A stretch of 64,000 nt of DNA from Nannobrachium achirus (Eukaryota > Chordata > Actinopteri > Myctophiformes > Myctophidae), in NCBI GenBank assembly GCA_963921795.1, contig OY997642.1, forward strand, positions 45,332,885 to 45,396,884. The letters are read 5' to 3'. The notes under the pieces are model-generated. The model saw only the letters and a list, made by a program, of their open reading frames with translations. It did not search any database and was not told the origin of the DNA. Both the position numbers and the translations under genes were made by a program. Below, piece after piece: positions 3,701 through 64,000 of this stretch (positions are counted from its first letter, which is position 1; every line of letters begins with the position of its first letter).

Positions 3701-6700
3701 GTTTGAAGTGAAAGCAGCTTTGAGATATCTGGTTTGTTTGCCCTCTTTGTTTCCTTAGATACAGTGCAAGTTATTTGTGTTTGAGAAGCTGGCTCAGTCG
3801 TGGATAGAGAGGGGTCGAGGTCTACTGAGGCTCAATGACATGGCATCCACAGACAACGGCACGCTACAGTCCCGTCTAGGTAATAACGCAGCAGAATATT
3901 AAAGGATGACTTCACCACATTTAAAAAAATCCTACTTTCTCCGTGTCTCATACGAGGGCTGTGGACAGTTCAGAAACCCGTCTACCAGTGACATCATTGA
4001 TGGAGAATCCAAGCTAATAGAAACTGCAGGCTTTCTATTCCTGGAAAGTAACCATGCTTTCATGGAAGCCATTGTTCTCACGATAACAAATCTAAATATT
4101 GTGTTAAAAAATCATGCCTAACGATGCTGTCACGTTTAGACAGGTTTCTGAACTGCACACAGCCCTCCTAAGAGACATAGACCGATTCGAAAGTAATTGT
4201 GCTATTTTATAATGAACATGAGGACCAATTATATGAATATTGGTTGAAAAGTGGTAAAGTTTTTTTTTTACTCTTGTCACACAAAGTGACTGCTTGTAGA
4301 GTCATTTGGCCTGTGTTTATTGTGATTCAATAAGCTTCTCTGGGCGGTGATGTTACAGTAGGCCTCTCATGAGGATTATATTTCCCGCAGTGATGGTCGC
4401 CTGGCAGTGTTTTGCTTTTGTCAGTAACCTTGGTACCACCATGCATGTGGCACTAGCCATGCTTTGCACTCCACACGGTGCAAGGCATGGCTTTTGTTCC
4501 AAATTGACCAGTGTGATCCGGCCTAGAGCCCGCTTTCCCTATCTGCTAATTTGCATGCGCGGCTTCTGTATCCGCTTGAGGCCCAGACCAGATCTGACGC
4601 TGCCGGTGTGGGTATGTTCATTGAAAATAATAGGGGCGGCTGGTTTGACGCGTGCCGTCCGCAGCCGGTGTGAGTCCCCCTCAAGCCTAAGTGTGCCTTA
4701 TACTGGGGCATTCACGAATAGTGATTTTTAGTATTAGAATTATTCGACCTCGGGGCGCCCAGTGGCCTACTGGTCTAAGCGCATACCATATAGGCCTTGA
4801 TGCCTGGCGGCGTCGCCGGTTCGATTCCCGATCCGGACGACCTTTGCCGCATGTCTCTCCCCATCTCTCTCCCTGTTTCCTGTCAGTCTACTGTACTATC
4901 CAATAAAGGCCTAAAAAAGCCCCAAAACAAATCTTAGAATTATTCGACCTCAAAGTATTCGAATAGTCGAATATTCGACTGGACTGGCCAAACTGTCAAA
5001 TATTAAGTAAGCAAGATGTGAACATTGTGAAAATAGCCGTTGCGAGGCGTTGTGAGCATGTAGATCGGCTATTTTCACAATATTTATCTGCGGAACCGAG
5101 TCACATTAAATGTAATACCTACAATTCCAAGTGCTTGTCAGGGTGGGGGTCCCCAGTTCAAATATGTTTATTTTGGGGGTCACGGCCTAAAAAGGTTTGA
5201 GAACCCCTGGTATAGAGCATTAACAAATTCATCCACCAGGGGCACTGACAACTTATTCTTATGACTTCCTATCTAGCCAAGCTTTATAAACTATATATTT
5301 TTTAAAGAGAAAACAATAGAAAAATTAAAATAAGCGACTTCGGTGAACAACGTTGAATAGTGACTTTTATATTCGAATATTCGAATATTTGGTGAATGCC
5401 CTACCTTATACACAAACTTTTAACACATTTAGTCTGGTAAAAAAAAACTATTTGGAATTTATGGAAAAATGGAACAAAATGTACCGTATTGGCCCGAATA
5501 TAGTACGACTCTGATTATAAGACGACCCCTATTTTTCAATTATCATTTTGGGAAAAAAATATGTTGAAGACAAAATATATTACAGGTATATTATATTATA
5601 TTATATTATTTATAAAGAAAAACGTTATTATTGTAAAATGATTATAGAAAAGCTCATACAGAGATAACATTATGCTGTATTGTATTGCATTAACCATCAA
5701 AGTCAACTTCTATTCAAAAACAACATTCACAATTCAGACTGTGAAAACGAAAAGCACAATAAAAACACTACATTTCCCATCAAGCTTTGCGGCCCGTTTC
5801 ATCATTCAGATGCGACGGTTCATTGTAAAGTAAACAGGAACCATTGGCTGCAGCCAGCGTTAGCTTGCATAGCTTCAGTTGCTGTTGGGATTAAACCTCC
5901 ACGCTAAAGATCACATATGCGCCCGTCATCCACGCCGATGTTCGCGAGAACAACGCACACGCACGCGGCCCGGTAAGTCCAATGCTAAAGCCATCCGACT
6001 TTGCCAAACGGGAGGTGAAATGTGCCGAGGTCCAACGTTCGCTGCGCATCAATCATGTAGTGTACGGTAATTATGGTACACTACATGACTGCAGTAGCTC
6101 GCGGGGGCTGTGAGGAGAGCAGGGAAAGGTCCTGAAAGATACATAACGTATCTCCCCGGTGAAAAGTCTAAGCCCCAATTATAGGACGACTCTCTATTTT
6201 GAGAATATGTTTATTAGAATAAAATATCGTCCTATATTCGGTCCAATACGGTATTTCAGTATCCTGATGAATAGCTGTGTGTGTGTGTCTCCAGTCATGA
6301 GGACCCAGGGCAGCCTGCGGTTAATCCTCAACACCAAGCTGTGGTCTCAGATGCAGGTGGACAAAGCCAGTGACAAGAGTGTACGCATCACTGCCATGGA
6401 CACAGAGGACCAGGGCGTCAAGGTCTTCCTAATATCGGTATGTTATGGTGTAAAGTAACTAAGTACATTTGAATTATTGAATGCTTTAACCAGTGAAAAA
6501 TAGCAGATATACAAGCTCACAGCGCGGCACCGAGTGCCGCGCTGCGAGCTTGTAGATCTGCTATTTTTGAAAAATTGTGAAAATGTGTGCAAATTACACA
6601 TCCATGCCTTGGTTGTCCCACACAAGCCGCCACAGTCTCATAAATCATTTTTTTTATATATTTTTCAAAGCAGACTTTTGTAACTCAAATCTCTGCTTCT

Positions 6701-61559: not shown

Positions 61560-64000
61560 AATGATAATTCTCTGTTTTGTCAAACTAAACAGGGTCGGAC
61601 TGACTCACTGGAAAGTCTTTGTTATGCACTAATGGAACGGAATAGAGCCTTAATTAGTGTAATTTAATTGGCAACACCTGTGTTTACTCTACTACTGTAT
61701 ATAGCTGCGTGAAAGATAGGCTAAAGTGCCGGGCTAATAGGTCTCCATCTCCCAACATCTCTAACCAACCATGGTTGTTAGTTTGTAACCTATGATAAAA
61801 GACTTCTCGGCTGAATGCCTGTACTATAACAACTTGCATGACTTGGCAGTTGGACAACAGTGTTCTAAATGTGATGCAAAACCATGTAGGAGTCTAGGAG
61901 ATGTCATTGTTGCTCTTTAATTTGGTCAGGTGTTGCAAAGTATCTACAGGCCAGGGAGGAGTCATTTAGCACAACAATACGCTCAAATCTCATTCAGAGT
62001 GTAAAACTGGTAAATTCTGTGTTAATTGTCAAATCTCCTTACCCATTCTGGCCAAGGGGCAAGTTCTGCCGATTTAAAATGACTCCAATACGGAAGTAAA
62101 ACTTCCTATGATTGGCCGCTAGTTGCGCTGTTTTCCCCCTCGGCCGATAGCAAAAAGAATTGTTCACCATTGGATCCCATTCATTTTCCCCTTTCGTGTT
62201 CTAACCTTAATTAACATTTTCATGAATACTTTATGGTTCCTATCGCTAGTTATCGCTAGCCTTTCAATCACCATCATATGCGTTTTGTCGAAATTTGGTC
62301 CAATGTATTTTAAAATAAATTATAAAGTTGCAGGGTGGGGGCGGGGCCGACTTCTGATGAAACTGATCTGCGGCCAGCCTGCATGCACTGATGCACAATT
62401 CGGTTACCCAGAGCAGAGCAGATCTAACAACTCGTCGTAATGCGACGCACTGTTAGCTAGATCGGTTTATTTTGTACAACGGCGTGTAAACATTTTTACA
62501 AAATAAATCTATTATACAAACCCAGGTTACAATGTACATTTAGCAGACGCTTAATCCAGAGCTATTAAAATGAGTGAGGACATAAATAAACACACATATA
62601 TTCTCTATAATTATATAAATGTTAAAACATCGTTTTTGTTAATTCGCCTACAATGTATTTACTCTTATAGGCATATCAGCCACAAATACACGACTTGGTA
62701 TTTATTTATTATGAAGGCTACCTACTGCCCGATTGTGTAACAAGCCTATATATAATGCCACCAAAACAATGCGTCTTTATTTGTTTTTTCTCGTCTTGAT
62801 TTGTGCAAGTATGGCATGCCATTAAGCTAATAGCCCTACATAAACATATCGACACCAGACAACATATTAGTGGCCACTTACAGCCAAAATAGCCTATGTT
62901 CTAAGCCAAGGGAAGCCTATATTATTTTATAAACTCCTCTTTAACATTGGCATATAGCATTCTTGATAATTTGTCAATCATATGCCTACCACAGACTTAC
63001 TTTATAGGCCTACTTCAGACCATTTATCAAATATTTCATGTAACATTTTGGAAACTGAAAACAGCACTTTTTATATGAAGTTGCATGTCCTGCTATCCTG
63101 TATAATTCTTGCCATACCTCATATACCTGTTGTTGGAGCCAGGATGGGAGATCTCGGTCGGGAATTTGAAGTTAGTCATAGCAGACTTCGGCGACGTGAT
63201 GTTATGGCAATTATCTGGCTTTTTGTAGGTTTAGAACGGCTATTAGGTAATAATGTATTTCTCCCAAGTAACCACTCGTATATAAAGTGGTATAGCCTAT
63301 AATATAATATAAAACTAAAAAGAAACACTCAACAATTAGCCTCACCAAATGGTATTAATTAAAACATTTGAAAATAACACTGAGGCTACAGTATAATTGT
63401 CAATAGAACAGTCTGCAGCACGTCAAACTAAGTTAGCACTTACATTCACTCACACATACAAATGTCACACAAATTTGCATAGGAACGCACACAAATAGAC
63501 ATAGGTTGATCTCACATTTTATTTCCAAAATATAAACCAGAATGAAATTGACTGAATCAAAGAGGAGGAATATGCTGAATGATGTAGGCCTGCTACTGTA
63601 AAAAAAAAACTCAATCAAACAAATGACATGAATCAAGCGCATTTACGATCGCTGATTGAAATAACCTCTTTAGCCTCCCGGAATAATTAACCCACGATAC
63701 TGCATGTCAGCTCAATAATTAGTTCATGAATCCATTCGTGAATCCAGCTTCTCTTCTACTGTAGGCTGGCTACTTAGCATGTCACAATCACAGACTGTAG
63801 TCACAATGGACAATTCATATGCATATTGCATCCATTCCTACATTAATCGCATTGTTAACATAGGTGTCAAATTGTTGTCAGCTTTTGTTAAGAGGTGTGA
63901 CTGAGAACTATGAATGCACTATGAACTATGAATGCAACCTCAGTCCTATAAACATCACAAATCCCTGTTAATAAATATGAATAAACACATGCATATTTCT
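61560..64000. other. Distal region, no gene recognised
   Basis: It holds a decayed hairpin module (62417-62470) and a TTTAGCAGACGCT repeat (62528-62575). A frame at 63075-63257 reads MKLHVLLSCIILAIPHIPVV with a hydrophobic start but has no recognised family. The rest is AT-rich and featureless. Confidence 0.4.

Follow-up and report, generated by a model that had tools for sequence, protein, structure and literature searches.

The genome of the myctophid fish Nannobrachium achirus carries one lineage of DNA hairpin in elements of three target-duplication types, namely TTAA (host classes A and B), a different 4 bp (class C) and 8 bp (hAT-like shells). We studied this hairpin in a stretch of 64,000 nucleotides (contig OY997642.1, positions 45,332,885 to 45,396,884, assembly GCA_963921795.1; hereafter "the window") together with further fetched sequence. 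The reading we favor, at about even confidence, is that an old palindromic core spread chiefly by the nesting of one transposon in another followed by loss of the inner ends, with its pairing kept in part by template switching. An initial annotation of the window had held that descent within families is insufficient to account for the palindrome, and we agree: because one hairpin lineage spans three target-duplication types, plain family descent does not explain everything.

Hairpin copies and host classes

The initial annotation reported a palindrome repeated about 25 times in the window. It is present at 12 of the 12 positions listed there, with a self-complementary extent of 57-91 bp and 79-91% self-identity in 10 of them, and a profile built from copies of 50-70 bp yields 26 copies within the window (E ≤ 0.1, the threshold for all loci counted here). 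Seven window copies that were folded gave z values of -10.5 to -14.5. Window and fetched sequence together (334,632 non-N bases) contain 144 merged hairpin loci, of which 110 come from 25 samples of 10 kb spaced evenly (246,472 non-N bp), or about 1 per 2.2 kb; scaled to 1.66 Gb, this density extrapolates to a genome-wide load of ∼740,000 loci. That these are chance or convergent palindromes has next to no probability and is already refuted by the reversed controls: exact matches to the 20-base arm number 149,964 in the 1.66-Gb genome, against 0 for the reversed pattern, and the reversed sequence gives 0 profile matches at E ≤ 1 and 1 at E ≤ 10, while nothing speaks for convergence except the general palindromy of miniature inverted-repeat transposable elements (MITEs). 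A marginal Rfam match (RF03545, insect flavivirus CRE; window 24705-24795, 42.9 bits against a cutoff of 41) overlaps a class A hairpin and was set aside as a chance resemblance between hairpins. A literature text search with the arm sequence returned one unrelated algal paper, and we recognized no description of the hairpin in the open-license literature, subscription papers and repeat databases lying outside this scope.

Host classes were obtained by clustering the hairpin flanks, and element ends were then sought (Table 1). Class A elements have TTAA-CCCATTTAG ends and two oppositely oriented hairpins, and one class A junction is found in 19,756 exact copies genome-wide. Class B (including B2 and K) has TTAA-CCACTTGAACC ends and a single hairpin, with no TTAA end recognized in class K; class H has TTAACCACTTCAGCCC at one side and a TTAA visible at one side only. 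TTAA stands at both sides of class B elements (window 30435-30643, L015 and L033) and of one class A element (9128-9300). Class C elements end in TGTCGGG(T/C) and hold the hairpin centrally, and their 4-bp, non-TTAA duplication is exact in 9 of 14 elements with readable flanks and mismatched in the remaining 5. Classes D, E, F and J sit in hAT-like elements. An 8-bp target duplication, which we take to be the mark of hAT elements, was seen in a single copy of each of the classes E, F and J; class D has a recognizable hAT-like end, GTTGCCCACC, and no 8-bp duplication was found for it. For classes G, I and M, no ends were defined.

An 8-bp duplication with short terminal inverted repeats (TIRs) accompanies 14 of 144 hairpin loci and 11 of 432 control positions, and by this standard the shells and classes E, F and J count as hAT-like; exact 8-bp duplications occur at 4704-5403, 26386-26944, 30328-30803 and 51322-51805. 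A strict scan for TTAA with a 14-bp TIR is not clearly above control (9/144 hairpin loci versus 15/684 control positions). We rejected the idea that all hosts are TTAA elements on that result, and because class C and several 8-bp shells do not fit it. In the passages compared here, piggyBac elements are given the terminal motif CC[C/T]T (PMC2872659) and Kolobok elements a TTAA followed by an AG/RR end (PMC6004289). The TTAA duplication of piggyBac is present in classes A and B and visible at only one side in H, but the ends of these classes read CCCATT (A) and CCACTT (B and H), which departs from the piggyBac motif and, in starting with CC, from the Kolobok end.

Flank similarity was scored for 325 pairs of flank types with 40 shuffles each, class I being outside the test. 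Three groups emerged: C with C2 and D; B with B2 and K (the pairs B-K and B2-K at only z 3.6-3.7); and, weakly, G with M (z 4.0). Lineages A, B/B2/K, C/C2/D, E, F and G/M show no mutual flank similarity above z 2.8. Some scores do cross groups (H_long-C2_t1 z 6.5, H_long-D_a z 6.4, C_t1-J_b z 4.5, A_in-H_short z 3.8). AT-rich flanks contribute in part to these values, and the independence of H and J from the other lineages is accordingly in doubt. The hairpin itself sorts by host. We assembled 74 classed hairpins, with B2 and K counted as B, after removing 7 loci that are probably duplicates, any copy that lacked a flank class and any with E > 1e-6. Of these, 71 belong to classes of two or more members, and the nearest hairpin neighbor shares the host class in 51 of the 71, compared with a permuted mean of 12.5 and a maximum of 26 in 2,000 permutations. 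Copies of eight classes (B, C, D, E, H, J, K and M, with one copy each for H, J and M) carry the same unusual A/C arm mismatch, which points to shared ancestry of their hairpins. In class D, we note that this arm marker stands opposite relative to the flanks in L001-L003 and in L019/L020, possibly through inversion of the hairpin inside its host.

Nested hosts and changes within the hairpin

The six unrelated host ends listed by the initial annotation are all present, but four of them, CAGGGGCGTCACA, CAGGGGTCTTCAAC, CAGTGGTGGAA and TAGGGATGGGACGATA, belong to outer shells that enclose inner elements (classes A, B, H and K), and much of the apparent diversity is nesting, which that annotation did not take into account. 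A class B element with TTAA at both ends (30435-30643) lies inside an 8-bp-duplication shell (30320-30811), class A lies inside the CAGGGGCGTCACA shell twice in the window (24365-24858 and 51322-51805), class H is found inside shells CAGTGGTGG and TAGAGATGGGAT, and class K inside TAGGGATGGGACGATA. One CAGGGGCGTCACA copy, L011, retains the inner AAATGGGTTAA end, and two others (window 24703 and L026:2698) are without it at the same junction, a loss that reads as erosion of the inner element. Class D shares flanks with C2 on both sides (C2_t2-D_b z = 6.9; C2_t1-D_a z = 3.8) and yet has its hAT-like end.

We hypothesize that the hairpin represents an ancient palindromic core within non-autonomous DNA transposons and that a hairpin-bearing element inserted into another element, whose transposase may then have amplified the composite. 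Inner ends would have been lost in some lineages, and the hairpin, once in a family, would be passed down with its host. Stages of nesting and erosion are seen for A and B and less directly for D; they would also have to apply to E, F, G and J and to the split between class C and the TTAA elements.

Within the hairpin, pairing was assessed in 18 chosen hairpins of the 144, representing 11 host classes (B2, C2 and K separate) plus two unclassed copies. Here, 92.1% of cells are paired and 14 of 34 pairs have changed on both sides, values that 0/500 shuffles reach in either case, while the number of further pair types is reached by 5/500; 17 columns are invariant. One pair, the site of the A/C mismatch noted above, is unpaired in 11 of the 18 hairpins, with one arm reading TAGCAGATC and the other TAGCCGATC.

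Asymmetric markers allow changes to be followed in individual copies. Within the first 12 Mb of C1 we took 80 class C copies, of which 60 have A at the GTAG-side arm marker and 20 were chosen for C there, a state found in 21 of the 100 class C copies listed. The other arm reads C in 41, A in 5 and T in 2 of the marker A copies (12 unreadable) and C in 12, A in 5 and T in 1 of the marker C copies (2 unreadable). A proposal that the arms show no correction was rejected on these samples, which contain homogenized arms. Exclusion of unreadable markers (14/80) and of loops other than GGT or ACC left 34 clean copies, 25 with the loop GGT and 9 with its reverse complement ACC. Both loop orientations occur in each of three flank subfamilies (TTTAAATCATTT, TTTAGTTCATTT and TTAAAATAATTT), and arms swapped with an unswapped loop were seen in 0/34. 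Genome-wide, exact 83-base class C versions number 2,295 in the canonical form and 72 in the fully inverted form (loop and arm markers), with 0 for the reversed controls. Among class A copies from the window and samples, 16 have a readable loop, which is inverted in 2, and 22 can be read in both arms, which are homogenized in 3; among 40 further copies chosen by an outer-arm marker, the corresponding figures are 0/28 for readable loops and 3/32 for readable inner arms. One class C copy outside the clean set, L053, shows both loop orientations in a doubled apex, which is what an aborted template switch would be expected to leave.

Template switching between the arms of an inverted repeat has a published signature, arm homogenization combined with inversion of the spacer (PMC8604942), and both changes are found here in place. 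The initial annotation had proposed template-switch copying between MITEs; its traces are seen inside the hairpin but not between families. Polymerase template switching in the extruded hairpin would homogenize the arms and flip the loop, partly maintaining the pairing, and each homogenized copy may have been made in this way rather than by amplification of a subfamily. The hairpin center had also been described as variable, which it is, largely through deletion: the 60 marker A copies of class C comprise 33 full hairpins, 18 with central deletions of 7-37 bp, 2 with insertions and 7 without a recognizable far end. Palindrome deletions would be the process that takes out the center.

Routes by which the hairpin may have spread

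Several observations weigh against spread by nesting and maintenance by template switching. Searches for joins of empty shells, covering the cases of class B and class A inside a shell, gave 2 chance-like matches (≤2 mismatches) and 0 matches (≤3 mismatches), and because no ancestral empty shell was found, nesting is read from the structure of the composites. No TTAA or class C ends were recognized around the hairpin in classes E, F, G and J, 20 of the 71 nearest neighbors belong to another host class, and, measured against the TTAACC end, the hairpin points one way in two B copies and the other way in the single H copy that could be read. The linkage between arm and loop in class C is weak (Fisher p = 0.10, or p = 0.034 with stratified sampling), inverted loops are rare in both class A sets, and amplification of a subfamily, instead of repeated correction, could account for the C/C marker class.

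Alternatively, a single ancestral hairpin element might have given rise to all hosts through divergence or replacement of its ends, in which case the hairpin was inherited only once. Classes A, B and H have TTAA-CC ends and a TTAA-to-hairpin spacing of 37-45 bp (counted from the sequences) in common, flanks are shared within C/C2/D and B/B2/K and to a degree between A and H (the A_in-H_short score above), and the arm mismatch is common property. This reading is nevertheless improbable, as TTAA, other 4-bp and 8-bp duplications imply different transposases and most of the 325 flank pairs are without similarity. The initial annotation also considered that the hairpin may be itself mobile, in effect a tiny element inserting into other transposons. 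Two-ended class C elements have the hairpin in 14 of 15 cases. Across the genome, class C hairpin junctions number 18,904 (exact matches) against 22 joins that lack the hairpin, a ratio that is approximate because the join pattern was stricter: it also required all 12 bases of the right flank to match and left room for no more than 6 bases between flanks. These 22 joins take ten forms, 13 of them retain exactly one outer stem half (8 TGAAAA, 5 TTTTCA), and they look like deletions at microhomology rather than an ancestral site. Among sample flank pairings, the hairpin is present in 331/361, and the other 30 fall on seven places: remnants persist at L033, window 51.6 kb, window 49.7 kb, L023 and L029, and there is no clear remnant at window 52775-52884 (class J) or L013:2204-2254 (class H). 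One candidate pre-insertion site, L033:8377, was rejected, since it retains TTCACTAG and belongs to the scar set. The two places without a clear remnant may be pre-insertion sites, and free mobility would also suit the at least six flank lineages without detectable homology and the varying orientation of the hairpin in its hosts. Against it stand the scar-like forms of the joins, the sorting of hairpins by host, the flanking sequence shared along with the hairpin in C/C2/D and B/B2/K, and the hairpin's own edges, where no target duplication was recognized. We regard independent mobility as quite unlikely.

A cis-acting hairpin that aids amplification, through binding of a host factor or transposase or through cruciform-aided replication or repair, could be retained by selection after acquisition by any route. 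Its occurrence in families of three target-duplication types, two of which have ∼19,000 exact junction copies each, is in line with such a role, as are the kept pairing and the 17 invariant columns of the 18 chosen hairpins. The covariation is, however, explicable without selection because homogenization of arms by template switching gives the same pattern, and because 18/60 class C copies are centrally deleted, a copy can persist at its site with the structure no longer intact. We consider a selected role somewhat unlikely, and retain the nesting of an old core, with inner-end loss and template switching, as the preferred account.

Table 1. Hairpins and hairpin-bearing elements in the window (TSD, target-site duplication)
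Feature	Position	Strand	Remarks
8-bp-TSD (hAT-like) shell TGGGGCATTC..GAATGCCCTA, class F	4704..5403		TSD CCTTATAC both sides; remnant hairpin 5038-5075 (profile)
Class A element, two inverted hairpins (6497-6568, 6880-6951)	6497..6951	+	Outer ends undefined; loop canonical in both
Short class A element, TTAA both ends, CCCATTTAG inverted ends	9128..9300		TTAA+TIR pair with 4/14 mismatches; part hairpin 9215-9240
Class A inverted-repeat region	12037..12425		Hairpins 12061-12109 (center deleted) and 12367-12401
Class F hairpin, ACATGC arm version	23978..24055	+	Host ends undefined
8-bp-TSD shell CAGGGGCGTCACA around eroded class A	24365..24858		Hairpins 24453-24509, 24703-24774; flanking 8-mers TGTGGAGG / TGGGGAGG, one mismatch
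Class C element	25224..25445		Both C ends; hairpin remnant 25308-25343; 4-bp flanks differ, ATTT / ATTC
8-bp-TSD shell TAGAGATGGGAT around class H hairpin 26573-26629	26386..26944		TSD CTCCTCAG both sides
8-bp-TSD shell CAGGGGTCTTCAAC	30328..30803		TSD GTCTAAGA both sides (with duplication 30320-30811)
Class B element nested in CAGGGGTCTTCAAC shell, TTAA-CCACTTGAACC ... GGTTCAAGTGG-TTAA	30435..30643		Hairpin 30480-30550; TTAA+TIR pair with 2/14 mismatches
Class A hairpin, full length	41310..41381	+	Self-complementarity, profile, fold
Class K (B-related) half hairpin within TAGGGATGGGACGATA shell	42820..42851		Profile and flank comparison
Class H hairpin within CAGTGGTGG shell, center deleted	50605..50666	+	TTAACCACTTCAGCCC at one side
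8-bp-TSD shell CAGGGG(G/C)GTC around class A	51322..51805		TSD ATGGTGCT both sides; hairpin 51425-51471, central deletion
Class C element, ends TGTCGGG(T/C)	57712..57969		4-bp TSD AATA; central hairpin 57792-57861
Weak hairpin relative, unassigned host	62416..62472		Profile E 6.7e-05

The window also contains a tandem array of TGATACTGACC units at 15055-15933 (∼26 copies of 34 bp, with higher-order periods of 57 and 147), and other long palindromic elements at 82-288, 10684-11337, 29554-29832, 31744-32218, 42963-43168 and 43279-43453 that give 0 matches to the hairpin profile. One class D locus and one class K locus have near-identical neighboring copies, at 25-36 kb (L001-L003) and 131-137 kb (L005-L006) near the start of C1, which are probably local duplications.

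Related systems and implications

The closest precedent in the sources compared is the coral CMITEs of Acropora (Wang et al. 2010, PMC2872659), in which six MITE families differ in their TIRs but have in common an internal region of 75 nt, better conserved than the TIRs, whose origin and role were given there as unknown. CMITEs have TTAA duplications, one novel element arose by CMITE insertion, and ∼1,600 copies were estimated in A. millepora. Like the CMITEs, the elements described here hold an internal region common to families with different TIRs. CMITEs are described as TTAA elements, whereas the hosts here also include elements with a different 4-bp or with an 8-bp duplication; what these hosts share is a hairpin, a word absent from the CMITE text compared, and it is far more numerous. 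Angel, a zebrafish MITE whose single strand folds and which was the basis of a stem-and-loop amplification model (Izsvak et al. 1999, via PMC12628747 and PMC2642840), is likewise a folding fish MITE, a likeness drawn by description only; sharing across families is not described in the passages on Angel that we cite. The V domain, a highly conserved domain of short interspersed elements (SINEs), is present in V-SINEs and in the MITE MER6 (PMC6887750), and resembles the hairpin as a short module common to otherwise unrelated mobile elements and carried by a composite element. It passes from SINE to MITE, however, and is not described as a palindrome in the text consulted, whereas the hairpin passes among DNA transposons. 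Arm homogenization and spacer inversion are shared with the yeast inverted repeats of PMC8604942, which are short repeats in the genes of yeast strains; in the present genome the record of such changes is made many times over, by a hairpin family of very high copy number.

A module common to transposons with different transposases provides a test of how new MITE families arise, a question that the coral CMITE paper left open. It is possible, though somewhat unlikely, that the hairpin is a cross-superfamily module, which elements with different transposases repeatedly acquire and keep because its extrusion aids amplification, and that the genome preserves very many records of germ-line extrusion; we liken this to the role that a shared domain may have in SINEs. 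We note as a caution that paired covariation in a DNA palindrome can stem from template switching and need not show selection or RNA. Because the hairpin has asymmetric markers and is so numerous, a single genome records many arm corrections, loop inversions and deletions, and hairpin extrusion and template switching could therefore be measured without experiment.

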